From assembly GCF_019947135.1 (NCBI RefSeq), contig NZ_JAGSHT010000005.1:62001-126000 (forward strand): DNA of 64,000 nt. Reading direction: 5' to 3'. The DNA is from Occultella gossypii. Its GTDB lineage: Bacteria; Actinomycetota; Actinomycetes; Actinomycetales; Beutenbergiaceae. The notes under the pieces are model-generated. The model was not told the origin of the DNA and ran no database searches. It was given only the letters and a program-made list of their open reading frames with translations. Shown piece after piece: positions 3,709 to 61,215 of the stretch (positions within the stretch are counted from its first letter, which is position 1; each line of letters starts with the position of its first letter). Both the position numbers and the translations under genes were made by a program.

Positions 3709-4512
3709 TCAGACGGTGGGTGTGCTGGTTGCGGTGGGGCGAGTTGCTCGTAGAGCGGCCCGACGCGCCGCCCGTGCCTCGAGGAACGCCGCCATCCGCT
3801 CCCCGAACTCGGTGCCCTGCAGGGTCGCGCGAGACAGCTCGGTCAGCGCCGCGGCCGCGTCCGGCATGCCGCTCGCGAGCAGTTCGCGGTTCAGCCATCG
3901 CTTGCTCCGGGCGGTGGCGTCGGGTGCGGCCGCGCCGATGCCCGCCAGGACCCGCTCGAGCGTCGCGTCGACATCGTCGACGGCGTAGCTGACCAGGTCG
4001 TGCTGCAGCGCCTCGGCGGGGCCGATCGTGTCGCCGACGAGCGCCAGCCGGGCGGCCAGGCGCCGGGTGGAGGATGACGGGACCGCCGCGAGGAAGACCG
4101 TCGGCCACGCTCCGATCCGGGTCTCCGGCAGCCCGAACGTGGCGCCGGGGCCGGCGATCACGACGTCGCTGACCACGACGATCTCCAGTCCGCCGCCGAG
4201 GGCGGCGCCCTCGACCACAGTGATCATCGGCAGGGGAGAGGCGGCCATCGCGGCGAAAGTCGGCAGCATGCCGTCGACGAAATACTCGATCGCGGCGTCC
4301 GGGCCGGCCAGGTCGCGCATGGAGTCGATGTCGTTGCCGGCGCAGAACGAGCGGGCGTCGCCGCGGATCACCACGGCCCGGTTGGCCGCGTCGTCGGGCG
4401 CCGCCTCGATGGCCTCGCGCAGACCGGTCCACGCGTCCAGGTCCATCGAGTTGCGCTTGGCGGGACGGTCCAGGGTCACCACGACGTGGTCGGACTTGTG
4501 CTCGATGATCAC
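3709..4512 (-). CDS. enoyl-CoA hydratase/isomerase family protein (crotonase fold)
   Basis: Cytosolic crotonase-fold enzyme of 267 residues acting on an acyl-CoA. It has the oxyanion-hole segments ARSFCAGNDI and EGAALGGGLEIVVVSD and both acidic positions used by hydratases (Glu in GGGLEI and Glu in LPETRIGAWPT), so hydratase activity is plausible. The RIGAWPT stretch is shared with the crotonase at 9615, so the two are paralogues within module A. The start is a GTG at 4512 that overlaps the TGA of the CoA-transferase (GTGA), with GGAG 10 bp upstream. A longer in-frame opening to 4686 overlaps the CoA-transferase and is rejected. The gene is the second of a two-gene leftward operon driven from the operator region near 6100. 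Confidence 0.9.
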   Translation of the reverse strand: MIIEHKSDHVVVTLDRPAKRNSMDLDAWTGLREAIEAAPDDAANRAVVIRGDARSFCAGNDIDSMRDLAGPDAAIEYFVDGMLPTFAAMAASPLPMITVVEGAALGGGLEIVVVSDVVIAGPGATFGLPETRIGAWPTVFLAAVPSSSTRRLAARLALVGDTIGPAEALQHDLVSYAVDDVDATLERVLAGIGAAAPDATARSKRWLNRELLASGMPDAAAALTELSRATLQGTEFGERMAAFLEARAARRAALRATRPTATSTPTV

Positions 4513-6062
4513 GATTGCTGCTCCAGGAGGATGGGGTCGATGGGGGCGAAGGCCGCGGCGGGCATCGGGCGCACGTCCCGCATGATCGGGCGCCAGGGCA
4601 GGTGCGCGAGGATGTCGCGCTCGAGGTCGAGTCCGGGCGCGACCTCGATCAGCGCGAGGCCGTCCGGGGTCAGCTCGAAGACGCACCGCTCGGTGACGTA
4701 GAGGGCTCGCCGGCCCTCCTCGGCGGCGAGGCGCCCGGAGAAGGTGACGTCGTCGACGTCGGCGACGAACTTCGCGACCTGACCCTCCCGCACGACCCGG
4801 GCTCCGCCGTCGAGCAGCTCGATCTGGAGGCCCTTCGCGCGGAAGGCGCCGCAGAACACGGACGTGCGCGCGTACTGGCTGATGTCGACGAAGCCGCCGG
4901 GGCCCATCACCTTGCCGCCGAACGCGGACACGTTCACGTTGCCGTGACGGTCGGCCTGCGCCATGCCCAGGCAGGTCACGTCGATCAGGCCGGCCGCGAA
5001 GGAGTCGAACTGGACCGCGGAACTGACCCGGGCGGACGGCCCGACGGACATCCCGAACAGGTCACCGAGCTCGGGGGCACCGTCGTAGAGGCCCTGCTCG
5101 ACGGCGAGGGTCACCTCGTGCAGGCGGCCCTCCTCCCGTAGCACTGCGCCGACGTCGGCGCTCATCCCGAAGCCGAGGTTGAGCACGTCGCCCTCGCGGA
5201 CCTCCATGGCCGCCCTGCGGGCGACGACGGCGCGGATCGGGTCGGTGAAACCGGCCGGCACGCCCTCGGGCGCGGGCGGTGCCGGGTCGAAGAGGGTGTG
5301 GTCCTCCTCGGTGAGGTAGGTCTGGCGCTGCTCGGGAACGACCACCACGTAGTCCACGAGCGCGGCCGGGATGAACACCCGGCGCGGGTCCAGCGGCGCC
5401 GTGGTGCGGCGCTTGACCTGGACGATGACGATCCCGCCCGAGCCCCGGGCCGCCTGGGCGCACTCGAGCGCGTCGAGGGTCGCGGGCTCGGCGTCGGCGC
5501 CGATGTTCCCGCGCTCGTCGACCTCGGTGCCGCGGATGATCGCAACGTCGACCTGGAACGGGCGGTAGCGCAGGTACTCGGTGCCGTCCAGCTCGAGCAG
5601 TTCGACGACGTCGTCGCGGGCGCTGGCGTTCGCGCGGCAGCCCTTGAGCCGGGGATCGGCGAAGGTGTGCAGGCCGGTCCGGGTGACCAGGCCCGGGCGG
5701 CGCGCACCGGACTCGCGCAGCAGGTGCGTGATGACGCCGGCGGGCATCGTGTACGCCTCGATCTTCTCCTCGGCGGCGAGGCGCATCATGGCCGGCGACC
5801 AGGTCCAGTGCCCACCGGTGACCCGCCGGACCATCCCCTCATGGGCGAAGCCGTTGAGGCCGCGGGACGCGCGGTCGCCGGCGCCGAGGGCGTGCACGAC
5901 GTGCAGGGCGCGGGGGGAGGACGTCGCCAGGAAGCGTCGCTCGATGGCACCGATCAGCTCGGTGGGCTCGAGCATCCCGCCGCCGTTGGCGGCCAGCGCC
6001 ACGGTGGCGCCGTCCTTGACCAACGCCGCGGCGTCATCGACCGAGAGCAACTCTGCTCGCAT
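4509..6062 (-). CDS. fused family I acyl-CoA:carboxylate CoA-transferase (YdiF/PCT type)
   Basis: CoA-transferase with alpha and beta halves in one chain (517 residues), as in propionate or acetate CoA-transferases. It moves CoA from a donor acyl-CoA to a free acid through a glutamyl-CoA thioester. The C-terminal half has the GxGM segment (VLNLGFGMSADVGAVLREEG) and the catalytic glutamate as E322 in AVEQG. It is more distant from the two CoA-transferases at 47825 and 52707: its N-terminus reads ALAANGGGMLEPTEL where they read TVSSSSGLGCPD. It is the first gene of the leftward operon, so it probably activates the acid handled by module A (inference). Acyl specificity cannot be read from sequence. 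Confidence 0.9.
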   Translation of the reverse strand: MRAELLSVDDAAALVKDGATVALAANGGGMLEPTELIGAIERRFLATSSPRALHVVHALGAGDRASRGLNGFAHEGMVRRVTGGHWTWSPAMMRLAAEEKIEAYTMPAGVITHLLRESGARRPGLVTRTGLHTFADPRLKGCRANASARDDVVELLELDGTEYLRYRPFQVDVAIIRGTEVDERGNIGADAEPATLDALECAQAARGSGGIVIVQVKRRTTAPLDPRRVFIPAALVDYVVVVPEQRQTYLTEEDHTLFDPAPPAPEGVPAGFTDPIRAVVARRAAMEVREGDVLNLGFGMSADVGAVLREEGRLHEVTLAVEQGLYDGAPELGDLFGMSVGPSARVSSAVQFDSFAAGLIDVTCLGMAQADRHGNVNVSAFGGKVMGPGGFVDISQYARTSVFCGAFRAKGLQIELLDGGARVVREGQVAKFVADVDDVTFSGRLAAEEGRRALYVTERCVFELTPDGLALIEVAPGLDLERDILAHLPWRPIMRDVRPMPAAAFAPIDPILLEQQS

Positions 6063-6095
6063 GGGCTGTCCTTCCAGCTGAGGGTGTCCGTACGA

Positions 6096-6124
6096 ATGAC
6101 ACCGGTTTCCATCCTGTGTGTCAA
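6096..6124 (-). promoter_or_regulatory. leftward promoter with embedded LacI-type operator (module A)
   Basis: On the minus strand, TTGACA at 6124-6119 and TGTCAT at 6101-6096 have a 17-bp spacer. The operator core ATGGAAACCGGTGT (6112-6099) occupies that spacer. An identical 14-mer in mirror orientation lies at 6205-6218. A repressor bound here would block the CoA-transferase/crotonase operon. The best candidate is the LacI-family protein at 14026 (inference). Confidence 0.7.
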
Positions 6125-6197: not shown

Positions 6198-6226
6198 TTG
6201 ACATATGGAAACCGGTGTTAGAGAGT
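6198..6226 (+). promoter_or_regulatory. rightward promoter with embedded LacI-type operator (module A)
   Basis: TTGACA at 6198-6203 is a consensus -35 box. A weak -10 (GAGAGT, 6221-6226) follows 17 bp later. The spacer holds ATGGAAACCGGTGT at 6205-6218, identical to the minus-strand copy at 6112-6099. The core ACCGGT is palindromic with a central CG, as in LacI/GalR operators. This would control the long operon from 6334 to 15072. Confidence 0.7.
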
Positions 6227-6333: not shown

Positions 6334-7704
6334 ATGCGTAGGAAAGCCCGCTTGGTAACGACGGTGGCGATCGCGACCACCGCCGCACTCACGGCGTGTT
6401 CGGGCTCGGGCACGCCCGGCACCGACGAAGGAGACGGCAGCGCCACGATCAACCTGTGGCACACCGAGTCCACGCCCATCACCGTCGAGGCGATGCAGGA
6501 GATCATCGACGAGTACGAGGCGGCCAACCCCGGCGTCGAGATCATCCAGGAGACCGTCGGGTGGGGCGACCTGCAGGTGAAGTTCCAAGCTGCCCTGGCC
6601 GCCGGCGACCTGCCCGAGATCACCCACGTCGAGCCGATGTTCGTGCGCACTCTGTACGGCCAGGACCTGCTGCTCCCGCTCGACGAGGTCGTCGAGTCCT
6701 TCGACGGCGACTACCTGCCGCAGTTGCAGGAGATGTTCGAGCTCGAGGACGGCCACACCTACGGCGTGGTGCACGCCTGGGGCACGGACACCACGACCTA
6801 CCGCGCCGACCTGTACGCGAACGCACCCGAGGCCGGCACTCCCGAGGACGTCACCACCTGGGACGAGTCGATCGCGCAGTGGTCCGCCGTGGCCGAGGCC
6901 AACCCCGGGGTCTCCCCGCTGCTGCTCGCCGGCGCCGCCGCGCACAACGTCAACGAGGAGGTGTACCTGTGGCTCGGCTCGAACGGCGGCACCCTCTTCG
7001 ACGAGAACGGCCACGTCACGATCGACACCCCGGAGATGATCGAGGTACTGGAGTACTGGAAGGAACTCAAGGACACCGGCATCCTCTCCCCGCAGTGGTC
7101 CTCCGCCGCCTACGCGGACAGCCTGAGCGGCCTCGCGAACGGCGATGCGGCGACGATCTACTCCTTCGGCCGCGCGGTGTACACGTTCCAGGAGCAGGCC
7201 CCGGACCTGGTGCCCGGGGAGGACATCCGGGTCTACGGCCCGCGTCCCATCGGCCCCTCCGGCGACGACTGGATCACCCAGCTCGACGCGGAGCCGTTCG
7301 TGGTGTTCAAGGACTCACCGGACGCCGACGCGACCGTCGACTTCCTGAAGTTCTTCTACGAGCACGACAACTACCTCAGCTGGATCGGCACCGTGCCCAC
7401 CCAGTTGCTGCCGGTCATGCCGTCGATGTTCGACGATCCGGAGTGGCAGGCGCTGCCCGAGGTGCAGGAGTGGGACTTCTGGATCGACGTACAGCGTGAG
7501 GCGCTGGAGTCCGGGCGCGCACACCCGCTCATGGTGACCAGTGCGGACGAGATGTCGCTGCCGTATCTGAGCGACCTGTACGGCTCGGCGATCCTCGTCG
7601 ACATGGTGATGGAAGTCGTCGAGAGCGGCGCCGATCCCGCCGAGGCCGCGGCCACCGCGCAGCAGCGGGCCGACGAGCTGCTCTCCCCGCAGTACCAGGA
7701 CTGA
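6334..7704 (+). CDS. extracellular solute-binding lipoprotein of a CUT1 ABC transporter (family 1)
   Basis: Substrate receptor of the module A importer, exported and anchored to the outer face of the membrane. The signal peptide has a lipobox LTAC with the lipidated Cys at residue 22. The mature protein shows family 1 features (ATINLWHTESTPITVEAMQ at the N-terminus). The start at ATG 6334 has the ribosome site AAGGAGG at 6323-6329; an upstream in-frame ATG at 6205 lies inside the promoter spacer and is rejected. Length (456 residues) is usual for the family. A strong hairpin (7712-7765) separates it from the permeases, a frequent way of keeping binding-protein mRNA in excess. Ligand unknown; sharing an operon with acyl-CoA enzymes is unusual for this family. 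Confidence 0.92.
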   Translation: MRRKARLVTTVAIATTAALTACSGSGTPGTDEGDGSATINLWHTESTPITVEAMQEIIDEYEAANPGVEIIQETVGWGDLQVKFQAALAAGDLPEITHVEPMFVRTLYGQDLLLPLDEVVESFDGDYLPQLQEMFELEDGHTYGVVHAWGTDTTTYRADLYANAPEAGTPEDVTTWDESIAQWSAVAEANPGVSPLLLAGAAAHNVNEEVYLWLGSNGGTLFDENGHVTIDTPEMIEVLEYWKELKDTGILSPQWSSAAYADSLSGLANGDAATIYSFGRAVYTFQEQAPDLVPGEDIRVYGPRPIGPSGDDWITQLDAEPFVVFKDSPDADATVDFLKFFYEHDNYLSWIGTVPTQLLPVMPSMFDDPEWQALPEVQEWDFWIDVQREALESGRAHPLMVTSADEMSLPYLSDLYGSAILVDMVMEVVESGADPAEAAATAQQRADELLSPQYQD

Positions 7705-7795: not shown

Positions 7796-8734
7796 ATGCT
7801 CACAGACACCCCCGCGCGTGCCGAGACCGGCACCGGTCCGCCGCTGAAGGCGGCGCGCAAGCCCCGCATGCCCCAGTGGTTCTGGGGCGTGCTGCTGGTC
7901 ATCCCGTCAGCCGTCCTGGTCCTCGGCGTCATCGCCGTGCCGATCGTGTACCTGGCGCGGCTCAGCCTGACCGACGCCCACGCGTACCTGCCCCGGATCA
8001 ATGACATCGGGCTAGGCAACTTCGCCAACCTCGCGGCCTCCCCGCAGTTCTGGCAGAGCCTGCGGACGACCCTCCTCTACGCGGTCCTCACCGTGGTGAT
8101 CCAACTCGTCCTCGGCGTCATCGTGGCCCTGCTGATGCACCAGAACTTCCGCGGCCGCGGCGTCGTCCGTCTCATCGCGATCGCGCCCTACATGATCCCG
8201 GCGATCATCGTCGCCCTGGTGTGGCGCTGGCTGCTCGAGCCCAACAACGGCGCCTACTCCTGGATCGTGCGGACTGTGGTGCCCGGGGCGGACGCGGTGA
8301 ACCTGCTCAGCCCCACCTGGATCTTCGCGTCCCTGGTGATGGTCTCGGTCTGGATGTACACGCCGTTCGTGGTGATCAGCGTGCTGGCCCGGCTGCAGAC
8401 CGTCGATCCGTCCGTGATCGAGGCCTCCACGGTCGACGGCGCCGGCCCGTGGCGCCGGTTCTGGCACATCATCCTGCCCGAGCTGAGCGCGGTGCTGCTG
8501 ACCCTGGCACTGCTGCGGTTCATGTTCATGTTCACGAAGTTCGACATCGTCTATCTCTTCGCCGGGACCGGCCAGGAGGTCCGGACGCTGCCGCTGCTGA
8601 CGTTCCAGACGATCTTCGGGGAGTCCCGGCTCGGCGCCGGGGCGAGCCTGGCGATGGTGATGTTCGTCCTGCTCGTCGTCTTCACGACGGTCTACCTCAA
8701 GACCCTGCACCGACGCTCGGAGGACACCGAATGA
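7796..8734 (+). CDS. CUT1 ABC transporter permease, MalF class (module A)
   Basis: Inner-membrane permease of 312 residues with about six membrane segments, the first at about residues 27-55 (FWGVLLVIPSAVLVLGVIAV). The EAA loop is EASTVDGAGPWRRFWH followed by IILPEL near residue 210, the docking site for the ATPase. It overlaps the next permease by 4 bp (ATGA at 8731). It works with the binding protein at 6334. No ATPase gene is present in this operon, so a shared ATPase elsewhere in the genome is likely (family knowledge). Confidence 0.92.
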   Translation: MLTDTPARAETGTGPPLKAARKPRMPQWFWGVLLVIPSAVLVLGVIAVPIVYLARLSLTDAHAYLPRINDIGLGNFANLAASPQFWQSLRTTLLYAVLTVVIQLVLGVIVALLMHQNFRGRGVVRLIAIAPYMIPAIIVALVWRWLLEPNNGAYSWIVRTVVPGADAVNLLSPTWIFASLVMVSVWMYTPFVVISVLARLQTVDPSVIEASTVDGAGPWRRFWHIILPELSAVLLTLALLRFMFMFTKFDIVYLFAGTGQEVRTLPLLTFQTIFGESRLGAGASLAMVMFVLLVVFTTVYLKTLHRRSEDTE

Positions 8735-9567
8735 GCACCCTGAAGCGACTCACCCAGCCGCGGTACGTCCTGGCCATCGGCATCGGCATCGTGGTGGCGG
8801 TGAACCTGTTCCCGTTCTACTGGATGGTCCTGACGTCGGTGAAGCCCGGCACCGAGCTGTTCTCGAACCCGCCGCGGTTCTTCACCACGATGCCGGACTT
8901 CGGTGCCTACGTCCGGCTCATCGAGAGCACCGGATTCCTCACCTTCGCCAAGAACAGCGTGATCATCTCCATCGGCTCCACGCTGCTCTCGATCGCGGTC
9001 TCGGCGATGGCCGCCTACGGGCTCACCCGCTTCAAGTTCCCCGGCAGCAAGGCCTTTACCACCGGGATCCTGTACGCGTACACGTTCGCCCCGATCGTCG
9101 TCGTGGTGCCGCTGTACGGACTGTTCCGCGACCTGGGTCTGATCAACACCTACGGCGGCATGATCCTGGCGTACGCCTCGTTCGGGGTTCCGTTCAGCAT
9201 GTGGCTGCTGCGCCCGTTCTTCAACTCCATCCCGAAGGAGCTCGAGGAGGCCGCGTTCCTGGACGGCGCGAACCGGATCAAGAGTGCCTGGTACGTCGTC
9301 CTGCCGCAGGCGACCCCCGGCATCATCGCCGTCTCGGTGTTCACCTTCCTGCTCGCCTGGGAGGACTACCTGTTCGCCCGGGTGCTCATCACGGACACGA
9401 ACATGAAGACGCTGCCCGTCGCCCTGCACGATCTGCAGAACGCCAGCCTGCAGGACTGGCCGCTGTTGATGGCCGCCGCGGCCCTGGTCAGTCTGCCCGT
9501 GCTGCTCGCGTTCCTGTACCTGCAGAAGTACCTGATCGCCGGCTGGGGCGCCGGCGCGATCAAGTGA
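8731..9567 (+). CDS. CUT1 ABC transporter permease, MalG class (module A)
   Basis: Second inner-membrane permease of the module A importer, 278 residues. It has the N-terminal MalG signature NLFPFYWMVLTSVKPGTELF, six membrane segments and the EAA loop ELEEAAFLDGANRIKSAW followed by VVLPQA. The C-terminus YLIAGWGAGAIK matches the common MalG ending (the G-A-V/I-K tail). The start ATG overlaps the stop of the MalF-class gene. Downstream, 47 bp separate it from the crotonase at 9615 with no terminator, so transporter and enzyme genes appear co-transcribed. Confidence 0.92.
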   Translation: MSTLKRLTQPRYVLAIGIGIVVAVNLFPFYWMVLTSVKPGTELFSNPPRFFTTMPDFGAYVRLIESTGFLTFAKNSVIISIGSTLLSIAVSAMAAYGLTRFKFPGSKAFTTGILYAYTFAPIVVVVPLYGLFRDLGLINTYGGMILAYASFGVPFSMWLLRPFFNSIPKELEEAAFLDGANRIKSAWYVVLPQATPGIIAVSVFTFLLAWEDYLFARVLITDTNMKTLPVALHDLQNASLQDWPLLMAAAALVSLPVLLAFLYLQKYLIAGWGAGAIK

Positions 9568-9614
9568 GCGTCACCGACCAAGCCCGCCACCGCCAACACG
9601 AGGAGCAGTCGCAG

Positions 9615-10388
9615 ATGTATGTGAAGTTCGAGGTCCGGGACGATGCCGCCTGGATCATCATCGACCGGCCGGGCAAGCTCAACGCCCTGGACATGGACGG
9701 GTGGCACGGGATCACGGCGGCACTGCACCAGGCGGCGGCCGAGGCACCCGGGCCCGTGGTCCTGACCGGCACCGGCCGCGCCTTCTGCGCCGGCGACGAC
9801 ATCGCCACGTTCGCCCAGCACACCACCCGCGAACGAGCCCACGACTTCTTCATCGGTGGCCTGCTCGGGACAATGGAGGCCATCGCCACCCACCCCTACC
9901 CGGTCATCGCCGGGGTCAACGGGCTGGCGGTCGGCGGCGGCTGCGAGCTCGTGCTCGTCTCCGACCTGGCCATCGCGGCCGAGTCCGCGAGGTTCGCGCT
10001 GCCCGAGGGCCGCATCGGGGCCTGGCCCACCGTCCAGGTCGGCGTGGCGGCACACGAGAGCGGACGCAAGCTGGCCAACGAGATGGCGTTCGAGATGGGC
10101 TGGGTGCCCGCCGCCGAGGCGCCTCGGTTCGGGCTCGTCAACCGGGTGGTCCCCGATGAGGACCTGGAGGACGAGATCGAGCGGACCATCGCCCGGATCC
10201 GCGCCGGCTCCCCGCAGGCGCAGCGGCTGACCAAGCGGTTCCTCAACGAGGAACTCGTGGCGACCGGCCTGCCGAAGGTCCGTCGTGCGCTGGAGGCCCT
10301 CATCGACGAGACCCTGCCCACGCGCGACCTGCAGGAGGGCACCAGCGCCTTCCTCGCCAAGCGCCAGCCGACCTTCATCGACGCGTGA
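9615..10388 (+). CDS. enoyl-CoA hydratase/isomerase family protein (module A)
   Basis: Crotonase-fold enzyme, 257 residues. Oxyanion-hole segments GRAFCAGDDI and NGLAVGGGCELVLVSD and both catalytic-type acids (GGGCEL; LPEGRIGAWPT) are present, so hydration or isomerisation of an enoyl-CoA is chemically possible. It is closest within the window to the crotonase at 3709, with the same RIGAWPT stretch and a similar C-terminus. The start is ATG 9615 with AGGAG upstream. It lies between the permeases and the CaiB gene in one long operon, so it should act on the CoA ester made by CaiB or by the fused CoA-transferase (inference). Confidence 0.9.
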   Translation: MYVKFEVRDDAAWIIIDRPGKLNALDMDGWHGITAALHQAAAEAPGPVVLTGTGRAFCAGDDIATFAQHTTRERAHDFFIGGLLGTMEAIATHPYPVIAGVNGLAVGGGCELVLVSDLAIAAESARFALPEGRIGAWPTVQVGVAAHESGRKLANEMAFEMGWVPAAEAPRFGLVNRVVPDEDLEDEIERTIARIRAGSPQAQRLTKRFLNEELVATGLPKVRRALEALIDETLPTRDLQEGTSAFLAKRQPTFIDA

Positions 10389-11620: not shown

Positions 11621-12069
11621 GTGCCACCGGACGGCGCGACGGGCTCCCCGCCGTCGGCTCGGCCGTTGTCTTCCGCAAGACCGTCACCGAGGCGGACGTC
11701 GGCCTGTTCGCCGGGATCACCGGCGACTTCGCGCCGCAACACACCGACGAGGAGTACATGCGCGAGCGCCCCCAGGGCCGGCGGATGGCGCACGGCACCC
11801 TCGTGCTCGCGCTCACCTCCACCGCGGCGGCGCGGCTGTGCACCGAGCACGACGTCACGGCCGTCTCCTACGGCTACGACCGGGTCCGGTTCATCCGGCC
11901 GGTGTTCCTCGGGGACACGGTCCGAGTGGAGTACACGATCGCGTCCGTCGATCCCGGGCGCCGCCAGGCCGTCGCCGAGATGCGCGCGACCACCCGGCAG
12001 GGCGAGGAACTCGTCCTGGTCGGGACCCACATCCTGTACTGCTACCCGGACGAGGATGGTGCGTCATGA
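11617..12069 (+). CDS. MaoC-like hotdog-fold (R)-hydratase (module A)
   Basis: Small single-domain hotdog protein, 150 residues, probably hydrating an enoyl-CoA or dehydrating a hydroxyacyl-CoA. The hydratase-2 motif is ITGDFAPQH: Asp37 and His42, the catalytic pair of (R)-hydratases, are present, but the Asn normally between them (GDxNPxH) is Ala39. The paralogue at 57591 has the same change. The YGYDRVRFIRPVFLGDTV stretch matches the usual core. It overlaps both neighbours by 4 bp (ATGA at 11617 and at 12066), which indicates tight co-translation with CaiB and the ACAD. Confidence 0.9.
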   Translation: MSATGRRDGLPAVGSAVVFRKTVTEADVGLFAGITGDFAPQHTDEEYMRERPQGRRMAHGTLVLALTSTAAARLCTEHDVTAVSYGYDRVRFIRPVFLGDTVRVEYTIASVDPGRRQAVAEMRATTRQGEELVLVGTHILYCYPDEDGAS

Positions 12070-34036: not shown

Positions 34037-34037
34037 G

Positions 34038-49521: not shown

Positions 49522-49535
49522 GTAGATCGGTCTAC
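49522..49535. promoter_or_regulatory. LacI-type operator, module B site 1
   Basis: GTAGATCGGTCTAC is a near-perfect palindrome centred on CG, 33 bp upstream of the left CoA-transferase start. Its GATCG[A/G]TCTAC core recurs at 49679-49692, and a related site is at 56271-56286 beside the module B LacI gene. Confidence 0.65.
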
Positions 49536-49606
49536 CGATTCTTGCAACCTGGATGATCAATTGAGCGGGCTCCGGCTAGGCCGCTAGAACGTGCGGAGAC
49601 TGTGGT

Positions 49607-49652: not shown

Positions 49653-49679
49653 TTGACTGTGTTGGGTGACTATTCTAAT
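49653..49679 (+). promoter_or_regulatory. candidate promoter of the TRAP operon
   Basis: TTGACT (49653-49658) and TCTAAT (49674-49679) are separated by 15 bp, slightly short. The LacI-type site at 49679-49692 begins at the -10 box, where a bound repressor would block transcription. Confidence 0.5.
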
Positions 49680-49692
49680 GTGATCGATCTAC
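49679..49692. promoter_or_regulatory. LacI-type operator, module B site 2
   Basis: TGTGATCGATCTAC shares GATCG[A/G]TCTAC with site 1 and overlaps the end of the candidate TRAP -10 box. Confidence 0.6.
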
Positions 49693-49771
49693 CGGGTCGA
49701 AAAGACCCGGACTCCCGGCCGACCGTCACCCGTCGTGACGGCGTCAACGAAGACTGAGAGGGTCCACCACC

Positions 49772-52680: not shown

Positions 52681-52706
52681 TTCATCTTGGAAGAGAGTTG
52701 GTAGGC

Positions 52707-54347: not shown

Positions 54348-55138
54348 GCGAGTCCCCGAACCACGGCAGCGCAACACTTTCGTTCGACCCCTCCGGCGAG
54401 GTCGCGACGATCACGCTCGACCGGGCCGCGAAACTCAACGCGCTCACCCCGGCGATGCTGCGCGACCTCGAGGTCGCAGCCCGGGCGGCCGACGACTCCC
54501 CGGCCCGGGTCGTGCTCGTGCGAACGGCGGGCGTCAAGGTGTTCTGCGTCGGGGCCGACATCACGATGTTCGGCGGACTGAGCCCGGTCGAGATGTGGCG
54601 CGACTGGATCACCGTGGGACACCGCGCGTTGAGCGCCATCGAGGCGATCCGGTGCCCCACGATCGCGGTCATCGACGGCCTCGCGTTCGGTGGCGGACTC
54701 GAGCTCGCGCTCGCGTGCGACTTCCGGATCATGGTCACCGACACCCGCGTGGCCCTGCCGGAGACCGGCCTCGGCACCGTCCCCGGTTGGGGCGGCACCG
54801 GTCGGCTGCCGGCCCTGGTCGGCGCCTCCCGCGCGAAGGAGATGATCCTCGCCCGCCGGGAGGTCGGGGCGGACCTCGCTCTCGCCTGGGGACTGGTGAA
54901 CGACGTCACAGCACCCGAGGCACTGGAGGAGTGCGTCGAGGGCTGGTGCGCTCGGATCAGGGGCGGTGGTCCGGTGGCCGTGGCACTGGCGAAGCAACTC
55001 GTCACGGCGACGCTCGACGGCGCCCCGGCCTCGGTGGTCGAGGCGCTGGCCGGCGGTCTCTCCGTCGGTACCGCCGACCTCGCTGAGGGCGTCGCAGCGT
55101 TCCGGGCCAAACGCACCCCGGAGTTCACCGGCCGATAG
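54344..55138 (+). CDS. enoyl-CoA hydratase/isomerase family protein (module B)
   Basis: Crotonase-fold enzyme, 264 residues. Segments KVFCVGADITMFGG and LAFGGGLELALACD form the oxyanion hole; both hydratase acids are present (GGGLEL; LPETGLGTVPGWGG). The GTVPGWGGTGRLPALVG stretch is like classical enoyl-CoA hydratases and unlike the RIGAWPT form in module A, so the two modules recruited different crotonases. It is translationally coupled to the CoA-transferase and is the last gene of the TRAP operon, convergent with the LacI gene. Confidence 0.92.
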   Translation: MSESPNHGSATLSFDPSGEVATITLDRAAKLNALTPAMLRDLEVAARAADDSPARVVLVRTAGVKVFCVGADITMFGGLSPVEMWRDWITVGHRALSAIEAIRCPTIAVIDGLAFGGGLELALACDFRIMVTDTRVALPETGLGTVPGWGGTGRLPALVGASRAKEMILARREVGADLALAWGLVNDVTAPEALEECVEGWCARIRGGGPVAVALAKQLVTATLDGAPASVVEALAGGLSVGTADLAEGVAAFRAKRTPEFTGR

Positions 55139-55208: not shown

Positions 55209-56234
55209 TCAGCCTCGCGAGCGCCTGCCCCAGGACAGCGTCGATGCACGTAGCCGCAGAGCCGGCTCGAACTCGATCCGTTCCGGAGGGGCGGCACCGT
55301 CGGCGATCCGGGCAAGCAGCAGTTCCGCGGCGGCCTTACCGACGCGATTGGGCCAGGTCGCCACCGACGTCAGCGGGGGAGCCAGCCAGGACGCCATCGG
55401 GACGTCGTCGAAGCTCGCGACGGCGACGTCCCGGCCCGGGGTCAGGCCGCGCCGGTAGATCTCTGCGTACATACCCATCGTCACCACGTCGCTGTAACCG
55501 ACCACGACGTCCGGCACCTTGCCCTGGTCGAAGACGTGCGCCATAGCGCGTTCGCCGGTGTCGGTGTAGTTCGTCGGCAGCGCCGTCGCCTCTCCGGAGT
55601 CGAACTCGACTGCCGTGCCGAGCCCGGCGCGCAGGCCGGCGATGCGTCCCTGGCGCGCGGAGGACTTCCGCGGTCCGCCGACCAACGTCACCGACCGGGC
55701 CCCCAGGGTGCGCAGGTGCTCACCAAGGATGAGGCCGGCGGCCTCGTTGTCCGGGCCGACATAGTTGTCCTGCTCGTCGATGTACCGCATCATCATGACC
55801 AGAGGCGTTTCGGTCGATTTGGTGTATCGGTCTACCTGCTCCCGGGTGAGATCCTGGGCCGGTTGGAGGAGGAGGCCGTCGACGTGGCGTTCGACCATCG
55901 TGGACAGCAATTGGGACTCGCGCTCGGACTGATCGTGGCTATGTCCGACGAGCACCGTCAAGCCCTCGCCGTGCAGCGTCGCCTCGATGGCCATGATCAT
56001 CTCGCCAAGGTAAGGATTGCGGATTTCCGGTACGATCACGCCGATCGTCATCGACCTGGACGCGCGCAGCATTGCCGCGCGACGGTCGTAGACGTACCCG
56101 AGCTCGACCATCGCCGCACGTACACGCTCGGTGGTGGCCGGCGAGATCCGCTCGCTGCCACGGACCACGAGCGACGCCGTCGCCCGCGAGACCCCCGCCC
56201 GGGCGCTGACGTCATTGAGGGTTACGCGCCCCAT
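55209..56234 (-). CDS. LacI-family transcriptional regulator (module B)
   Basis: 341 residues. The helix-turn-helix is TLNDVSARAGVSRATASLVV, with a sensor domain (MTIGVIVPEIRNPYLGEMIM; HLRTLGARSVTLVGGPRKSS; VAVASFDDVPMASW). It lies between the two halves of module B, convergent with the crotonase and divergent from the CaiB operon. The palindromic site at 56271-56286 is 37 bp upstream of its start, and related sites occur at 49522 and 49679. It is the likely common regulator of the left CoA-transferase, TRAP and CaiB operons. Confidence 0.91.
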   Translation of the reverse strand: MGRVTLNDVSARAGVSRATASLVVRGSERISPATTERVRAAMVELGYVYDRRAAMLRASRSMTIGVIVPEIRNPYLGEMIMAIEATLHGEGLTVLVGHSHDQSERESQLLSTMVERHVDGLLLQPAQDLTREQVDRYTKSTETPLVMMMRYIDEQDNYVGPDNEAAGLILGEHLRTLGARSVTLVGGPRKSSARQGRIAGLRAGLGTAVEFDSGEATALPTNYTDTGERAMAHVFDQGKVPDVVVGYSDVVTMGMYAEIYRRGLTPGRDVAVASFDDVPMASWLAPPLTSVATWPNRVGKAAAELLLARIADGAAPPERIEFEPALRLRASTLSWGRRSRG

Positions 56235-56270: not shown

Positions 56271-56286
56271 GTTAGATCGATATAAC
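56271..56286. promoter_or_regulatory. LacI-type operator, module B site 3
   Basis: GTTAGATCGATATAAC is a 16-bp palindrome with a single mismatched pair, centred on CG, in the 130-bp gap between the LacI (56234) and CaiB (56365) starts. Its TAGATCG core is shared with site 1 at 49522-49535. Confidence 0.7.
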
Positions 56287-56364: not shown

Positions 56365-57594
56365 GTGAGCACGATCAGCGAGACCGGGACGTTCGTGGGG
56401 GTGGAGGACCTGCCGTTGCGCGGCGTCCGCGTCCTCGACCTGTCGCACATGATGCAGGGGCCGTGGGCCACGGAGATGCTGGCGGATCTCGGAGCCGACG
56501 TAATCAAGGTGGAGCACGTCCGTGGTGGTGAGCGCGGACGCCAGTCCGGCACGACGGAGATCGGCGGCCATTCGGCGTTCTACCTGGCCATGAACCGCAA
56601 CAAGAGGTCGCTCGCCCTCGACCTGAAGGCACCGGCCGGGCTCGCGATCGCCCGGGACCTCGTGGCCCGCGCCGACGTCCTGGTGCAGAACTTCCGGCCC
56701 GGCGTCATCGACCGCCTCGGACTGGGATGGACTGAGGTGCACGCCCTCAACCCGGGGCTGATCTACTGCTCCGGCTCCGGGTACGGCGCCGACCAGGCCG
56801 ATCGACCCGGCCAGGACCTGCTCGCCCAGGCCCGCAGCGGCGCGATGGCGCTGACCGGGCACCACGGCGGACCGCCCGCGCCGAGCGGGCCGTTCGTCGC
56901 GGATGCGCACGCCGCGTCGATGCTCGCCCTCGGGGTGTGCGCCGCCCTCTTCGACCGGACCCGTACCGGGCTGGGGCGGCACTTCGAGATCGACCTGATC
57001 GGCTCGATGCTGCACCAGATGACGCAGGAACTCGTCTCCCACCACAACGGTGACCGGCCCACCCGACGTTCCCCCTCGCCATCGAACCCGTTCATGGAGG
57101 GTCCCTACGGCGTCTACGCCACCAGCGACGGGTGGATCGCGATCTCGATGTGCCCGACGGCGGACCTCGCCCGCGCGCTGGAGCGCCCGGACCTGCACGA
57201 GCGTTTCCCGGACAAGGCCACGGCACTCGAACGCCGCGACGAGCTCGTGGAGGACGTGAGCGCGTTGCTCGCGCCGCGGACCACGGCCGACGCCCTCGCC
57301 ACGCTGGAGTCCAACGGCGTGTGGTGCGCGCCGGTCAACGACCTCGACGCGATGACCACCGACCCGGTGGTCGGCTGGGCCGGGCGGCACACCACCGTGC
57401 CGCACCCCGGCATCGGTCCGGTCGACCTGGTCCTGAACCCGCTCTCGCTCGACGGTCGGCGGCTGCCGGTGCGCCGCCCCGCCCCGTTGCACGGCGAGCA
57501 CTCGGCAGAGGTCCTCGCCGAGCTCGGCCTGGACCAGGGCGAGACCGAGCTGCTGGCGCGGGACGGCGTCGTGCACCTCGGCGGTGCCGCATGA
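56365..57594 (+). CDS. CaiB/BaiF family III CoA-transferase (module B)
   Basis: 409 residues, paralogue of the gene at 10400. Shared segments include LRGVRVLDLSHMMQGPW, NRNKRSLALDLKAPAG, VLVQNFRPGVIDRLGLGW and GQDLLAQARSGAMALTG, with candidate catalytic Asp151. The N-terminus carries 17 extra residues. The start is GTG 56365, with CAGGAGGG upstream. It is the first gene of the operon CaiB-MaoC-ACAD-SDR-isomerase, each junction overlapping or nearly touching. The acyl acceptor is unknown; it may share a substrate class with the fused CoA-transferases. Confidence 0.93.
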   Translation: MSTISETGTFVGVEDLPLRGVRVLDLSHMMQGPWATEMLADLGADVIKVEHVRGGERGRQSGTTEIGGHSAFYLAMNRNKRSLALDLKAPAGLAIARDLVARADVLVQNFRPGVIDRLGLGWTEVHALNPGLIYCSGSGYGADQADRPGQDLLAQARSGAMALTGHHGGPPAPSGPFVADAHAASMLALGVCAALFDRTRTGLGRHFEIDLIGSMLHQMTQELVSHHNGDRPTRRSPSPSNPFMEGPYGVYATSDGWIAISMCPTADLARALERPDLHERFPDKATALERRDELVEDVSALLAPRTTADALATLESNGVWCAPVNDLDAMTTDPVVGWAGRHTTVPHPGIGPVDLVLNPLSLDGRRLPVRRPAPLHGEHSAEVLAELGLDQGETELLARDGVVHLGGAA

Positions 57595-58028
57595 GCGCCC
57601 GCTTCCCCGCAATCGGTTCCACGAGCAGGTTCGCCAAGACCATCACCGAGGCGGACGTCGGCTTGTTCGCCGGAATCACCGGCGACTTCGCCCCGCAACA
57701 CATCGACGCCGAGTACATGCGAACCCACCCCGCCGGGCAGCGCGTTGCGCACGGCATCCTCACGCTCGGCGTCGCCTCGACGGCCGCCTCGCTGCTGTGC
57801 GAGCGGGAGGACGTGGTCGCGGTCTCGTACGGCTACGACCGGCTCCGCTTCCTCCGCCCGGTGTTCCTCGGGGACACCGTCGAGGCGCGCTACCGCACCA
57901 CCGAGGTGGACCCCGCGACAGGCAAGTGGTTCGCCGAGGTCAGGGTCACGAACCAGCACGGCGAGCAGGTGCTCGCCGCGGTACACATTCTCTATTGCTA
58001 CCCCGATGACGAAGGAGCACCAGCATGA
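57591..58028 (+). CDS. MaoC-like hotdog-fold (R)-hydratase (module B)
   Basis: 145 residues, paralogue of the protein at 11617 (shared KTITEADVGLFAGITGDFAP, YGYDRLRFLRPVFLGDTV, HILYCYPDDEGA). The catalytic-type Asp32 and His37 are present in GDFAPQH, with Ala34 in place of the Asn of canonical hydratases. It overlaps CaiB and the ACAD by 4 bp. It probably hydrates or dehydrates the CoA ester in this pathway. Confidence 0.91.
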   Translation: MSARFPAIGSTSRFAKTITEADVGLFAGITGDFAPQHIDAEYMRTHPAGQRVAHGILTLGVASTAASLLCEREDVVAVSYGYDRLRFLRPVFLGDTVEARYRTTEVDPATGKWFAEVRVTNQHGEQVLAAVHILYCYPDDEGAPA

Positions 58029-59179
58029 AGATCCTCGATGATCTCGACGAGATGATCGCGACCACCCTTGCGCCGCGGGCAGCAGAGATCGACGCCACCG
58101 CGCAGTTCCCGCAGGACGTCGTCGACGCGGCCGCGAAGATCGGGCTGCAGCGGGTCCTGGTGGGACAGGGCGGCGCGCTCGACGTCTCCAGGGCGACCAT
58201 CGTCCACGAGATCTCCGAGCGCCTGGCGATGCACTCGATGGCATCCGCGGTCGCGATCAGCAACGGGCGCCTGGCGACCTACCTGCTGCTCAAGTACGCC
58301 CCGGTCGACGTGATTGAGCGGTGGGTGGAGCCGACGTTGTCCGGTCGGGCCTTCGGAGCCTTCGCCATCACCGAGCAGCACGCGGGTTCGGATGTGCGGG
58401 GGATGACCACGCTCGCCACCCGGTACGGGGACGAGTACATCTTGACCGGGGCGAAGTCGTGGGTCGGATACGCACCGAACGGCCACTACGCGATCGTGCT
58501 CGCCAAGGAGGAGACCACCGACCGCGACGCCGCAATGGTTGCGCTCGTCGTGGACACCTCGCTGCCCGGCGTGACGCAGGCGCACGGGCCACAGTTCTCC
58601 GGCCTGCGTGGCATGACCAACGGGACGCTGACCTTCGACAAGGTGCGAGTCCCGGCCGGCTCACGTCTCGACGTCGACGGCTTCGGCGGCATGATGGACG
58701 GACTGAACCTGGCCCGGATCGACGCCGCTTCCTACGCCTGCGGGCTGCTGCGAGGCGCTCTGCAGGCGAGCATCGAGCGGGCCGCGACGAGGCAGGCCTT
58801 CGGCAGACCGCTTGGGCATCTACCGTCCATCCAGAGCAAGATCGGCCGCATGGCCGCCGACTACCGAGCTGCCCGCGAGCTGACCCGGCTCGCTTCGGAG
58901 TCCTTCGCCGAGGGCAATGGCGGCGACCAGGACATCATCTCGATGGCGAAGATGTTCGCATCGGACGCCGCCCGCAGGCACACCGACGAGGCGGTGCAGA
59001 TCTTCGGCGCCGAGGGCATCGTCACCTCGTCCTGGGTGAACCGGCTCAACCGGGACGCCAAGGTGACCCAGATCTTCGACGGGACCAGCGAGATCCACGA
59101 GACCATGCTCGGACGACGTGCCGTCCGCGCGTTCTCGCGGGGGGAGCCGCTCGAGTCCTTCCTGGTGCACGTGCCGTGA
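58025..59179 (+). CDS. acyl-CoA dehydrogenase family protein with non-canonical active site (module B)
   Basis: 384 residues, paralogue of the protein at 12066. It has all three ACAD domains (FGAFAITEQHAGSDVRG; ILTGAKSWVGYAPNG; RQAFGRPLGHLPSIQSKIGR). The usual catalytic Glu position is Asp352 in QIFDGTSEIHETMLGRR, and the alternative position in GLNLARID is Ala, as in module A. Conservation of both changes in two diverged copies argues for function, not decay. It overlaps MaoC and the SDR by 4 bp. Confidence 0.91.
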   Translation: MKILDDLDEMIATTLAPRAAEIDATAQFPQDVVDAAAKIGLQRVLVGQGGALDVSRATIVHEISERLAMHSMASAVAISNGRLATYLLLKYAPVDVIERWVEPTLSGRAFGAFAITEQHAGSDVRGMTTLATRYGDEYILTGAKSWVGYAPNGHYAIVLAKEETTDRDAAMVALVVDTSLPGVTQAHGPQFSGLRGMTNGTLTFDKVRVPAGSRLDVDGFGGMMDGLNLARIDAASYACGLLRGALQASIERAATRQAFGRPLGHLPSIQSKIGRMAADYRAARELTRLASESFAEGNGGDQDIISMAKMFASDAARRHTDEAVQIFGAEGIVTSSWVNRLNRDAKVTQIFDGTSEIHETMLGRRAVRAFSRGEPLESFLVHVP

Positions 59180-59919
59180 CCGGGGTTCTCAAGGAGAAGG
59201 TGGTCGTCGTCACCGGCGCCACCGGGGGGATCGGCTCGGCCATCGTTCGTGCGGTGGGCGCGGCCGGTGGCGTGCCCGTGATCGTGCATCACGGCGAGGC
59301 CGCGGCCGCGACGGCGCTCGCCGAGTCGGTCGGGGTGGGCGCCCTGGTCCGCGAGGTGGACGTGCGCGACTGGGACCAGGTCGCCGGGCTCGTGGACGAT
59401 GTCCTGGCCGAGCGCGGACGCCTCGACGTGCTCGTCAACAACGCCGGGATCATGGCGGAGGTTCCGTTCACCGAGATGACCCGGGCGGACTGGGACGCCA
59501 CGATGGACGTCGACCTCACCGGGGTGTTCCTGTGTGCTCGCCACGCGGCCGTCCCGATGCTCGCCGCGGGCGGGGGAGCGATCGTGAACGTGTCATCGCA
59601 GCTCGCCTTCAAGGGTGCCGCCGGGTACACCGCGTACTGCGCAGCCAAAGCGGGGGTCGCCGGCCTCACCCGGGCGCTCGCCCGTGAGATCGGTCCGACC
59701 GTGCGGGTGACCGCGATCGCACCGGGTCCGGTCGCCTCGCCGATGACCGACCCGTACGCCACGGACGAGTGGCTCGCGGAGCGCACCGGCCCGTTGGTGA
59801 TCGGCCGGCTCGCCGAGCCTGAGGAGATCGCGGCGTCCGTGGTCTTCCTCGCCTCTGAGGCGGGTTCCCTCATGCACGGTCAGACGTTGCACGCCAATGG
59901 CGGCGGCGTGCTGGCCTGA
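59176..59919 (+). CDS. short-chain dehydrogenase/reductase, FabG-like (module B)
   Basis: 247 residues, classical SDR. The glycine motif is TGATGGIG, NNAG is at 88-91, Ser140/141 in NVSSQ and catalytic Tyr154/Lys158 in YCAAK. It is a paralogue of the SDR at 13247 (shared QLAFKGA, ARALAREIGP, GQTLHANGGGVL). The GTG start overlaps the ACAD stop. It is followed after 9 bp by the sugar isomerase gene. Confidence 0.92.
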   Translation: MTGVLKEKVVVVTGATGGIGSAIVRAVGAAGGVPVIVHHGEAAAATALAESVGVGALVREVDVRDWDQVAGLVDDVLAERGRLDVLVNNAGIMAEVPFTEMTRADWDATMDVDLTGVFLCARHAAVPMLAAGGGAIVNVSSQLAFKGAAGYTAYCAAKAGVAGLTRALAREIGPTVRVTAIAPGPVASPMTDPYATDEWLAERTGPLVIGRLAEPEEIAASVVFLASEAGSLMHGQTLHANGGGVLA

Positions 59920-59928
59920 GGTGACTTC

Positions 59929-61215
59929 GTGAACGTGATGGACGACGGCGGCCCACCGGTGGAGCGTACGGGTGCGGGTGGGGAGGGGGTACTGATCGAC
60001 TCCCCGGGGCATCGGCTCCGCCTCGACCGGGAGGCCCGCCGACTGCTGGAGTTCGGGCGCGCCGCGCGGCTGCCTGAGGGCGGCTTCGGCTGGCTCGATG
60101 CGACGGGCGTGCCCACGCCGGGGCGGCCCAGGATGCTCTACGTCACCTGCCGGATGACGCATGCGTTCGCGCTCGGCACGCTGCTCGGGGTGGACGGCTC
60201 GGCCGAACTCGTCGACCACGGCTTGCAGGCGCTGCGCGGGTTGTTCGGGGACCGGGCGCACGGAGGCTGGTTCACCTCGGTGGGTGCCGACGGGCCGGCC
60301 GACGACCGCAAGTGGTCCTACCCGCACGCCTTCGTGGTGCTCGCTGCTGCGAGTGCGGCCACGATCGGCCGGCCCGGCGCCACCGAGCTGCTCGACGACG
60401 CCCTGCACGTCATGGCGGAGCGCTTCTGGGACGAGGAGGCGGGCATGGTGGTCGAACAGTGGGACGTCGGCTTCACTCGGCTCGACCCCGAGCGTGGGGC
60501 CAATGCGAACATGCACGCCGTCGAGGCGTTCCTCGCCGCGTGGGCGGCGACCGGCCGGGATGTGTGGCGGGACCGCGCCCTACGGATCGGCTCGCGGATG
60601 GTTGACGTGGCACGCCGGCACGAGTGGCGCCTACCGGAGCACTACGACGCGGCCTGGCACCCAGCCTTGGACCGGTACCGCGACCGTCCGCGGGACCCGT
60701 TCAAGCCGTTCGGCGCCACACCGGGTCACGGCCTCGAGTGGGCGCGGCTGCTGGTCCAGCTGCACCTCGCCTACGAGTCAGCCCCGGGCGGTTCGCCGGC
60801 CTGGCTGATTCCGGCCGCGGAGCAGCTGGCCGACGCAGCCGTGCGGGACGGCTGGCACGTCGATGGCGCCCCCGGCTTCGTCTACACCGTGGACTGGGAG
60901 GGTACTCCGGTCATCCGGAGCCGCCTGCACTGGGTCACCTGCGAGGCCTTGGGCGCCGCCGCGATGCTCTGGCAGGTGACCGGAGACGAGCGGCATGCCC
61001 GCCGCTACGAGACGTGGTGGGCCTACGCCGAGCGGTACCTGATCGACGAACTCCGGGGCTCATGGCACCATGAACTCGACGAGCACAATGCCCCGAGCGC
61101 CACGATCCGTGACGGCAAGGCCGACGCCTACCACGCACTCCAGGCGGTGCTCCTGCCGAGGTTGCCGCCGACCGCCGCCGTGGCTCCCGGCGTCGCCCGG
61201 CTACGGGCTCATTGA
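59929..61215 (+). CDS. AGE-family sugar isomerase, YihS-like (sulfoquinovose or mannose isomerase type)
   Basis: 428 residues, (alpha/alpha)6 barrel of the N-acylglucosamine 2-epimerase family. As I recall E. coli YihS, it aligns over most of its length: GFGWLDATG, TCRMTHAF, LVDHGLQALRG, RGANANMHAVEAFL, GATPGHGLEWARLL, GFVYTVDWEG, DGKADAYHALQ. The histidines at 196, 267 and 402 correspond by position to YihS His176, His248 and His383, and Arg75 to Arg55. It should interconvert an aldose and a ketose. Sulfoquinovose, mannose or a related hexose cannot be separated from sequence alone. The start is GTG 59929 after GAGG; ATG 59938 is possible. It is the last gene of the module B CaiB operon. Confidence 0.86.
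   Translation: MNVMDDGGPPVERTGAGGEGVLIDSPGHRLRLDREARRLLEFGRAARLPEGGFGWLDATGVPTPGRPRMLYVTCRMTHAFALGTLLGVDGSAELVDHGLQALRGLFGDRAHGGWFTSVGADGPADDRKWSYPHAFVVLAAASAATIGRPGATELLDDALHVMAERFWDEEAGMVVEQWDVGFTRLDPERGANANMHAVEAFLAAWAATGRDVWRDRALRIGSRMVDVARRHEWRLPEHYDAAWHPALDRYRDRPRDPFKPFGATPGHGLEWARLLVQLHLAYESAPGGSPAWLIPAAEQLADAAVRDGWHVDGAPGFVYTVDWEGTPVIRSRLHWVTCEALGAAAMLWQVTGDERHARRYETWWAYAERYLIDELRGSWHHELDEHNAPSATIRDGKADAYHALQAVLLPRLPPTAAVAPGVARLRAH

Follow-up and report, generated by a model that had tools for sequence, protein, structure and literature searches.

What does a bacterium do with two copies of the same four-gene acyl-CoA cassette, each joined to a different kind of importer? A 64 kb stretch of the Occultella gossypii genome (5.84 Mb in 39 contigs), hereafter the window, raises this question: genes for a CaiB-type coenzyme A (CoA) transferase, a MaoC hydratase/dehydratase, an acyl-CoA dehydrogenase (ACAD) and a short-chain dehydrogenase/reductase (SDR) follow one another in this order twice, once within each of two larger modules, A and B. 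The sequence shows, for each module, an importer, a LacI regulator of its own with operator-like sites in its own promoters, CoA-transferases and tightly packed operon genes for ACAD, MaoC and SDR, to which module B adds an AGE-superfamily isomerase. Taking these parts together, we give about even chances to the reading that the modules are two self-contained LacI regulons for a CoA-dependent breakdown of sugar acids or of polar acids resembling them.

Pfam called CaiB (PF02515), MaoC (PF01575), ACAD and SDR domains in both cassettes, at positions 10400-14029 (copy A) and 56365-59919 (copy B), and neighbouring genes share 4 bp at each of the six cassette-internal junctions. Between A and B, protein identity is 60% for CaiB, 63% for MaoC, 63% for ACAD and 51% for SDR. 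When the host genome was searched with the DNA of caiB from copy A, the sole long match was caiB from copy B (71% over ~1.1 kb), the remaining seven being fragments of 29-247 bp; the cassette pair is therefore not a product of chance. The refined coordinates and identities bear out an original prediction, made from the window alone, of two copies in identical order, with 4-bp overlaps and paralogy at every position. Its description of the surroundings held as well: Pfam places a CUT1 importer with A and a tripartite ATP-independent periplasmic (TRAP) importer with B, and each module has one lacI gene of its own. Module A further has two crotonases and one fused family I CoA-transferase, whereas module B has a single crotonase and two such CoA-transferases. 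No AMP-binding (ligase) domain was found among the window open reading frames (ORFs) scanned with Pfam, in agreement with the predicted lack of a ligase, and so far as these ORFs show no other means of activation, CoA would be attached by transfer.

CoAT1 and ech1b of module A are transcribed divergently from the CUT1 importer, whose binding lipoprotein has weak PDB matches, for the most part to sugar-binding proteins; no ATPase gene lies between the CUT1 permease genes and cassette A. In module B, the minus-strand lacI2 gene separates the TRAP part from the cassette, and the module ends on the AGE-superfamily gene, which was absent from the original prediction and matters for the interpretation.

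Table 1. Features of modules A and B and their operator-like sites, with positions in the window.
Feature	Position	Strand	Family, best match or remark
Module A			
Crotonase ech1b	3709..4512	-	PF00378; 4-bp overlap with CoAT1; 65% paralogue elsewhere in host (G000:C5)
Fused family I CoA-transferase CoAT1	4509..6062	-	PF01144, 101.5 bits; divergent from importer
LacI1 operator-like site (ATGGAAACCGGTGTCA)	6097..6112	-	exact; kept in Occultella and Jiangella promoters
LacI1 operator-like site (ATGGAAACCGGTGTTA)	6205..6220	+	exact; directly after TTGACA
CUT1 solute-binding lipoprotein	6334..7704	+	PF13416/PF01547
CUT1 permease 1	7796..8734	+	PF00528
CUT1 permease 2	8731..9567	+	PF00528
Crotonase ech1a	9564..10388	+	PF00378; best PDB 5zai, 3-hydroxypropionyl-CoA dehydratase, 130 bits
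CaiB-type family III CoA-transferase, cassette A	10400..11620	+	PF02515, 338 bits
MaoC hydratase/dehydratase, cassette A	11617..12069	+	PF01575; best PDB 4ffu
ACAD, cassette A	12066..13250	+	PF00441/PF02770/PF02771; FDGT (Asp at base position); best PDB 5ol2
SDR, cassette A	13247..14029	+	PF13561; YxxxK
LacI1 regulator	14026..15072	+	PF00356/PF13377; 4-bp overlap with SDR
Module B			
Fused family I CoA-transferase CoAT3	47825..49507	-	PF01144; divergent from TRAP operon
LacI2 operator-like site (CGTAGATCGGTCTACC)	49521..49536	+	1 mismatch
LacI2 operator-like site (ATGTGATCGATCTACC), weaker	49678..49693	+	3 mismatches to pattern
TRAP solute-binding protein DctP	49772..50809	+	PF03480; best PDB 4nx1/4ovp
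TRAP small permease DctQ	50811..51359	+	PF04290
TRAP large permease DctM	51356..52639	+	PF06808
Fused family I CoA-transferase CoAT2	52698..54347	+	PF01144
Crotonase ech2	54344..55138	+	PF00378, 145.6 bits
LacI2 regulator	55209..56234	-	PF00356/PF13377
LacI2 operator-like site (GTTAGATCGATATAAC)	56271..56286	+	0 mismatches
CaiB-type family III CoA-transferase, cassette B	56365..57594	+	PF02515, 343 bits
MaoC, cassette B	57591..58028	+	PF01575
ACAD, cassette B	58025..59179	+	Pfam; Asp at base position; best PDB 7p98
SDR, cassette B	59176..59919	+	PF13561
AGE-superfamily aldose-ketose isomerase, YihS/mannose-isomerase-like	59929..61215	+	PF07221; last gene of module B

A comparison of promoter regions across relatives revealed two distinct palindrome-like operators, one for each module, and both motifs are conserved in the relatives; GTGATCGATCTACC upstream of dctP, for example, also occurs in O. 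glacieicola and two Ruania loci. As the search patterns were written from the module sites themselves, the informative part of the genome-wide counts is the scarcity of other sites. Across the 5.84 Mb, the A pattern, ATGGAAACCGGTGTYA, is matched exactly at two sites, both between the CoAT1 and binding-protein genes, and nowhere in the host genome with one or two mismatches. With no or one mismatch, the B pattern is confined to the caiB and dctP/CoA-transferase promoters of module B; two mismatches add four further places in the host genome, one of them inside lacI2, and up to three give 99 matches versus 50 in a reversed control. We infer that each module forms a separate local regulon, probably repressed by LacI1 or LacI2, respectively. 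Genome-wide LacI regulons tying the modules to distant genes were considered too, and the pattern searches showed none.

Relatives of the cassette are known from Occultella, Ruania and Jiangellaceae. A scan of genome contigs with the CaiB pair returned 11 loci, in Occultella aeris, O. glacieicola, five Jiangella species, Candidatus Ruania gallistercoris and two metagenome-assembled genomes (MAGs), one from Actinomycetes and one from Streptosporangiales. With the MaoC pair (E 1e-30), 7 of 24 genomes of the family and 14 of 394 of the class matched, and the neighbourhood confirmed the cassette in six of the seven and 12 of the 14; the MaoC relatives in G022 (family), G187 and G225 (class) lie in other surroundings. 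Viral contigs held no ACAD relative, and a search with ACAD across 396 genomes drawn from the phylum, at E 1e-85, returned the host only, with known carriers undrawn or missed, so that it is no distribution count. Both types occur together in three genomes, those of the host, O. glacieicola and Ruania gallistercoris, the last with its A cassette on a short contig.

Tabulating the accompanying genes across loci, the window included, tied each type to one importer: CUT1 accompanies type A at all 14 loci with upstream genes visible, and TRAP plus AGE type B in four of four. In all 13 complete A loci, the genes run in the order binding protein, permease, permease, crotonase, CaiB, MaoC, ACAD and SDR, and genes for a fused CoA-transferase and a LacI protein go with them; ech1b, as second crotonase, is confined to the four Occultella loci, and the contig of a further locus (L011, genome G113) stops after ACAD. 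Because only TRAP, LacI, CaiB, MaoC, ACAD and AGE are kept across the four B loci (window, O. glacieicola and two Ruania), these make up the B core. Both Ruania B loci are without the CoA-transferase and crotonase, and CoAT3 in O. glacieicola, recognisable in three short stretches (L016, 2480-3107), looks like a decayed remnant. With these genes, or the SDR, missing from some B loci, the core common to A and B comes down to CaiB, MaoC and ACAD. Two further loci have mixed compositions. A Jiangella-family relative (G187) joins TRAP, MaoC and ACAD genes to a CoA-transferase of family I, and CaiB is absent from the 20 kb read there, which suggests that the two CoA-transferase types could substitute for each other; a Streptosporangiales locus (L018) mixes an A-type importer, crotonase and CaiB with Zn-dependent alcohol dehydrogenase (ADH) and Gfo/Idh genes.

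We then asked how the two copies are related. In the CaiB tree, support is 100/99 for A, 98/96 for B and 98/95 for A plus B against six outgroups. The ACAD tree supports B (99/96) and, moderately, A plus B (90/94), with A alone unsupported (53/59); here the ACAD of L018 groups with that of Rhodococcus USK13. The SDR tree supports A (100/100) and B (94/92) and, weakly, A plus B (88/87), and the MaoC tree supports A (96/95), with B not forming one group (1% of bootstraps) and no support for A plus B. The reciprocal relationship expected of the copies is thus recovered by CaiB, ACAD and, weakly, SDR, by which A and B appear to be sister lineages, but not by the MaoC tree, which leaves it unresolved. 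Since Occultella A groups with Jiangella A in the CaiB, MaoC and SDR trees, the window copies are not the outcome of a recent duplication; the A/B split would be older than the split of A between Occultella and Jiangella, or else A moved between the genera.

Going by family knowledge of the residues involved in CaiB, MaoC, SDR, crotonases and CoA-transferases, the catalytic positions look intact apart from one exchange, an Asp for Glu in ACAD. CaiB scores 338 (A) and 343 (B) bits with PF02515 (gathering score 23.3), and its PGQD aligns with PGYD of formyl-CoA transferase 10uh, preserving the presumably catalytic Asp. Both MaoC copies contain GDFAPQH, which we take to be the catalytic motif of R-specific MaoC hydratases, with its Asp/His pair; the YxxxK pair of SDR, two Glu positions in the crotonases and the VEQG Glu common to the three CoA-transferases in the window are likewise kept. 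At the ACAD base position, all 18 cassette proteins examined, including both window copies, have FDGT with Asp, compared with YEGT in the short-chain acyl-CoA dehydrogenase 2vig and YTGT in 7p98. Glu is also found at this position in L018, Rhodococcus USK13 and Aminobacter, and Asp in G187 (L050) and Azoarcus (L067). Because the ACAD domain scores are otherwise clear, we regard the Asp-base protein as a variant of the family and not as a non-member.

Family models placed these enzymes less precisely. For CaiB, MaoC, ACAD and the CoA-transferases, each NCBIfam model listed was reached at about half its cut-off or less, and cut-offs were exceeded only by general DctP subfamily models. A CoA-transferase, ACAD, hydratase and SDR are the enzyme set of short-acid oxidation, and the modules might simply degrade a non-sugar acid (short, branched or dicarboxylic) by reactions of the common beta-oxidation kind, with sugar-type importers recruited for it. 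The likeness of CaiB to succinate-glutarate and mesaconate CoA-transferases fits this explanation, as does the fact that TRAP carriers often transport dicarboxylates. We nevertheless consider it unlikely, given the LacI regulators and CUT1 importer, the AGE sugar isomerase in all four B loci, uxuA in both DctP-relative neighbourhoods read (see below), the low NCBIfam scores and the lack of a thiolase domain in the scanned ORFs of both modules, neither of which has the make-up of a classical beta-oxidation operon. As no lyase was found in the modules either, shortening of the carbon chain is not an obvious outcome. The label "beta-oxidation-like" in the original prediction therefore stands in part: beyond the missing thiolase, B is without SDR in O. 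glacieicola and without CoA-transferase and crotonase in Ruania.

The best NCBIfam match of ACAD is acryloyl-CoA reductase (212 and 203 bits), and the best PDB match of ech1a is likewise a C3 enzyme. The modules could then serve a C3 acid of the 3-hydroxypropionate or lactate type, downstream of sugar cleavage, through CoA transfer, dehydration to acryloyl-CoA and a redox step by ACAD; the CoAT1-ech1b pair does recur next to aldehyde dehydrogenase (ALDH), Fe-ADH and Ldh_2 genes. The similarity is generic, however, with 212 bits against a cut-off of 640, and a C3 route leaves both the joint presence of MaoC, CaiB and SDR and the AGE enzyme unexplained, making this explanation quite improbable.

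Importer B and the AGE protein point towards sugar acids. DctP passes the cut-offs of TIGR00787 (203 vs 175 bits) and NF037995 (186 vs 50), and its best PDB matches are 4nx1/4ovp (210 bits; next, 145), which presumably bind hexuronates. Its Arg167, Arg187 and Asn227, a set presumably general among DctP proteins, have the spacing seen in STM3169. STM3169 is described as a glucuronate-binding TRAP protein with this Arg/Arg/Asn set (PMC7660916). Neighbourhoods were read for 2 of 20 listed DctP relatives (38% and 34% identity; plasmid loci L069 and L070), and both contain uxuA, encoding mannonate dehydratase.

The AGE protein scores 359 bits with PF07221 (threshold 23.4) and keeps the His/Arg/Glu positions that we assume to be catalytic. 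Its best PDB match is the sulfoquinovose isomerase YihS (375 bits), followed at a distance by 5x32 (142 bits), presumably a mannose isomerase. Sulfoquinovose catabolism, with AGE in the part of YihS, is nonetheless very improbable: where E. coli YihS has Q362 and Q379, its presumed sulfonate contacts, the AGE proteins of the window, O. glacieicola and both Ruania loci carry His and Ala, D-mannose isomerase (NF051846) is the sole NCBIfam model matched at E 1e-20 or better, and the annotated ORFs of the modules contain no sulfoglycolytic kinase or aldolase domain. Sulfoquinovose was dropped as a candidate on the glutamine comparison and the NCBIfam scan. What speaks against dropping it is an AGE relative (45%) on a Komagataeibacter plasmid (L064), which retains the first Gln and lies near alkanesulfonate-monooxygenase genes, after a glucose 1-dehydrogenase gene; that locus is perhaps a real sulfosugar locus. 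The best reading of the window protein is an aldose-ketose isomerase with a different specificity.

Its match to D-mannose isomerase (452 bits, under the cut-off of 600) suggests another role for module B, the degradation of a mannose-bearing acid such as mannosyl-glycerate or a lactyl ether, in which the CoA enzymes would split acid from sugar and AGE would convert mannose to fructose. The C3 leanings of ACAD and ech1a are compatible with this, but simple hydrolases would suffice for glycosides, the scores stay under the model cut-offs, the best PDB matches of ACAD (5ol2 and 7p98) are not known to be C3 enzymes, and DctP resembles the presumed hexuronate binder; we judge a mannose-bearing substrate improbable. 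The original prediction of "a polar acid or glycoside" may be somewhat narrowed for module B by the hexuronate-type TRAP relatives and the aldose-ketose isomerase. AGE as the sole uronate isomerase was ruled out, as UxaC is encoded elsewhere in all six Occultella/Ruania genomes.

Single-gene relatives were followed into other neighbourhoods by reading 15 plasmid stretches, chosen from many matches (two, L058 and L063, without annotation). Those in Rhodococcus, Shinella, Sinorhizobium and Bradyrhizobium, with sugar genes around them, speak for sugar acids, as does a further gene pair of the host. A CoAT1 relative in Rhodococcus USK13 (56%) lies with Gfo/Idh, ADH, a dihydrodipicolinate synthase (DHDPS)-family protein, ACAD, SDR, an aldo/keto reductase, glycerate kinase and a sugar ABC importer, and one in Shinella with Gfo/Idh, ADH, a crotonase, a sugar importer and LacI. 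On Sinorhizobium pSymB (L059), a MaoC relative (48%) sits inside an L-fuconate degradation cluster, in which no step obviously requires it. A Bradyrhizobium CaiB relative (41%) adjoins GH88 and a DHDPS-family protein; in Paraburkholderia (L058), CoA-transferase, MaoC and LacI relatives are neighbours. Aminobacter pMDW2 (L057) joins a TRAP small permease to ACAD, CaiB and MaoC, the last three at 31-50% identity, and IS21 elements lie next to this set on the plasmid, which is conjugative. Elsewhere in the host genome, a second crotonase and CoA-transferase stand together, 65 and 73% identical to ech1b-CoAT1 (L108; G000:C5:155000-174500), next to Ldh_2, Fe-ADH, ALDH, IclR, CUT1-type permeases and an MR/MLE gene, likely a third use of the CoAT1-ech1b unit, in an acid-sugar cluster.

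Further genes of the window lie around and between the modules. Near the start of the window, an ABC permease gene (214-1215) adjoins a gene (1392-2573) for a transcription factor with an XylR-type periplasmic-binding-like domain and an AraC helix-turn-helix (PF13377, PF22177, PF12833). At 19834-23913, CUT1 permease and binding-protein genes adjoin an FAD_oxidored protein, and relatives of this set (33-38%) adjoin the A module in locus L049. At 33185-36035, a CUT1 binding-protein ORF of 283 aa, matched only from model position 112 onward, is followed by an ORF of 665 aa in which permease sequence occurs twice; either two permeases are fused here or a start was misread, possibly. The minus strand at 43704-46704 holds three consecutive aldo/keto reductase genes, and a plus-strand LysR gene ending at 47701 lies between them and CoAT3.

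How might these enzymes work together on a sugar acid? In the proposed route, CaiB would load CoA onto the imported acid, with the family I CoA-transferase as an alternative or return carrier; ACAD, MaoC and SDR would modify the alpha and beta carbons, and the acid would be released as its CoA passes to another incoming molecule. An aldose freed in module B would then be isomerised to a ketose by the AGE enzyme. A more specific and rather unlikely version has these enzymes remove an O-substituent from the beta carbon. ACAD would introduce a double bond between the alpha and beta carbons of the thioester, MaoC would add water at the beta carbon so that, with an O-alkyl or O-glycosyl group there, the resulting hemiketal would collapse and release the group, SDR would reduce the keto group so formed, and CaiB would recycle the CoA. 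The net effect would be a redox-balanced removal of the substituent, for instance from C4 of a uronic acid, with each cassette enzyme used once. Spelled out for a 4-O-alkyl or 4-O-glycosyl uronate with CoA on C6, the Asp-base ACAD and MaoC would open the C4-O bond via a 4-keto hemiketal and SDR would reset the centre, CaiB again recycling CoA, so that acyl-CoA chemistry instead of a hydrolase, lyase or monooxygenase would break an ether or glycosidic link; this variant, a new chemical route for sugar acids, is doubtful.

Several observations weigh against CoA-dependent sugar-acid catabolism or against parts of it. The O. glacieicola B locus is without SDR, its ACAD and AGE genes abutting, which weakens the reduction step. 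With UxaC in six of six Occultella/Ruania genomes (and 3 of 11 Jiangellaceae), plain glucuronate would not require the AGE enzyme; UxuA, present in four of the six and not in O. glacieicola, is not decisive. Among alpha-glucuronidases, GH67 occurs in 2 of 17 genomes and GH115 in none of 11 drawn from the 17, which speaks against xylan-derived 4-O-methylglucuronate, considered as a concrete substrate for the O-substituent model. The SDR loss, UxaC and alpha-glucuronidase scarcity each limit the O-substituent model or its favourite substrate. CUT1 and TRAP are broad families, the module A operon contains neither an AGE gene nor a glycosidase, and the structures predicted for the two binding proteins (pLDDT 47.8 and 36.9) are too low in confidence for their binding sites to be compared. 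The A operator pattern with three mismatches has 29 sites (31 matches in total vs 5 for the reversed control), and joint support for A plus B declines from moderate (ACAD) through weak (SDR) to none (MaoC). Lastly, CoAT1 relatives in Rhizobium and Azoarcus have no clear sugar context, a Roseibium CaiB relative stands in mixed surroundings, between aromatic-dioxygenase genes and a sugar-importer cluster, and an Agrobacterium MaoC relative adjoins an oligopeptide-type importer and an amidase.

If the sugar-acid reading is true, acyl-CoA chemistry would be used on carbohydrates, through a hexuronate-type importer, an aldose-ketose isomerase and CoA enzymes, and a function would be assigned to AGE, ACAD, CaiB and MaoC subfamilies that would at present be named after fatty-acid or mannose enzymes. 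As the gene sets are compact, the operators well defined and cultured relatives known by name, this reading lends itself to direct testing.

The usual breakdown of sugar acids runs through dehydratases, dehydrogenases, kinases and aldolases and does not involve CoA. Among the papers listed by searches of the open-licence PubMed Central literature, we found neither a CoA route for sugar acids nor a pathway with this gene set, which to that extent supports the original remark that the combination was not recognised as a described pathway. The hexuronate TRAP systems with UxaC/UxuA have the Arg/Arg/Asn binding-protein set, presumably general among DctP proteins, in common with module B, and two plasmid DctP relatives stand beside uxuA, but the module B cluster has CaiB, MaoC and ACAD in place of UxuA/UxuB. 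Known hexuronate routes use no CoA. The carnitine cai system (CaiA, an ACAD; CaiB; CaiD, a crotonase) likewise joins a family III CoA-transferase, an ACAD and a crotonase, to which the window adds MaoC, SDR, LacI and sugar-type importers; the carnitine enzymes themselves were rejected on scores of 106.8 against a cut-off of 413 bits (CaiB) and 111 against 540 (CaiA). With the itaconate and mesaconate pathways the modules have the logic of CaiB plus MaoC in common, with ACAD and SDR besides; itaconate degradation was set aside at 26 against 340 bits for the RipB/Ich-type MaoC model and with no citramalyl-CoA lyase among the module ORFs scanned. YihS and the AGE mannose isomerases have their fold family and catalytic His/Arg/Glu positions in common with the window protein, which differs at the Gln positions, stays below the D-mannose isomerase cut-off and has CoA enzymes as operon partners. 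For 3,3'-thiodipropionate in Variovorax paradoxus TBEA6, CoA transfer, ACAD and hydratases have been proposed to end in loss of the beta-sulfur, in two published variants, beta-elimination or beta-oxidation, that are only partly proven (PMC6370202). That substrate is a thioether dicarboxylate and not a sugar acid, both variants differ in detail from the O-substituent proposal, and the covered parts of PMC6370202 mention no AGE isomerase or sugar importer. Every enzyme family of the two modules is already known; judged from the genes, what appears to be new is their combination.

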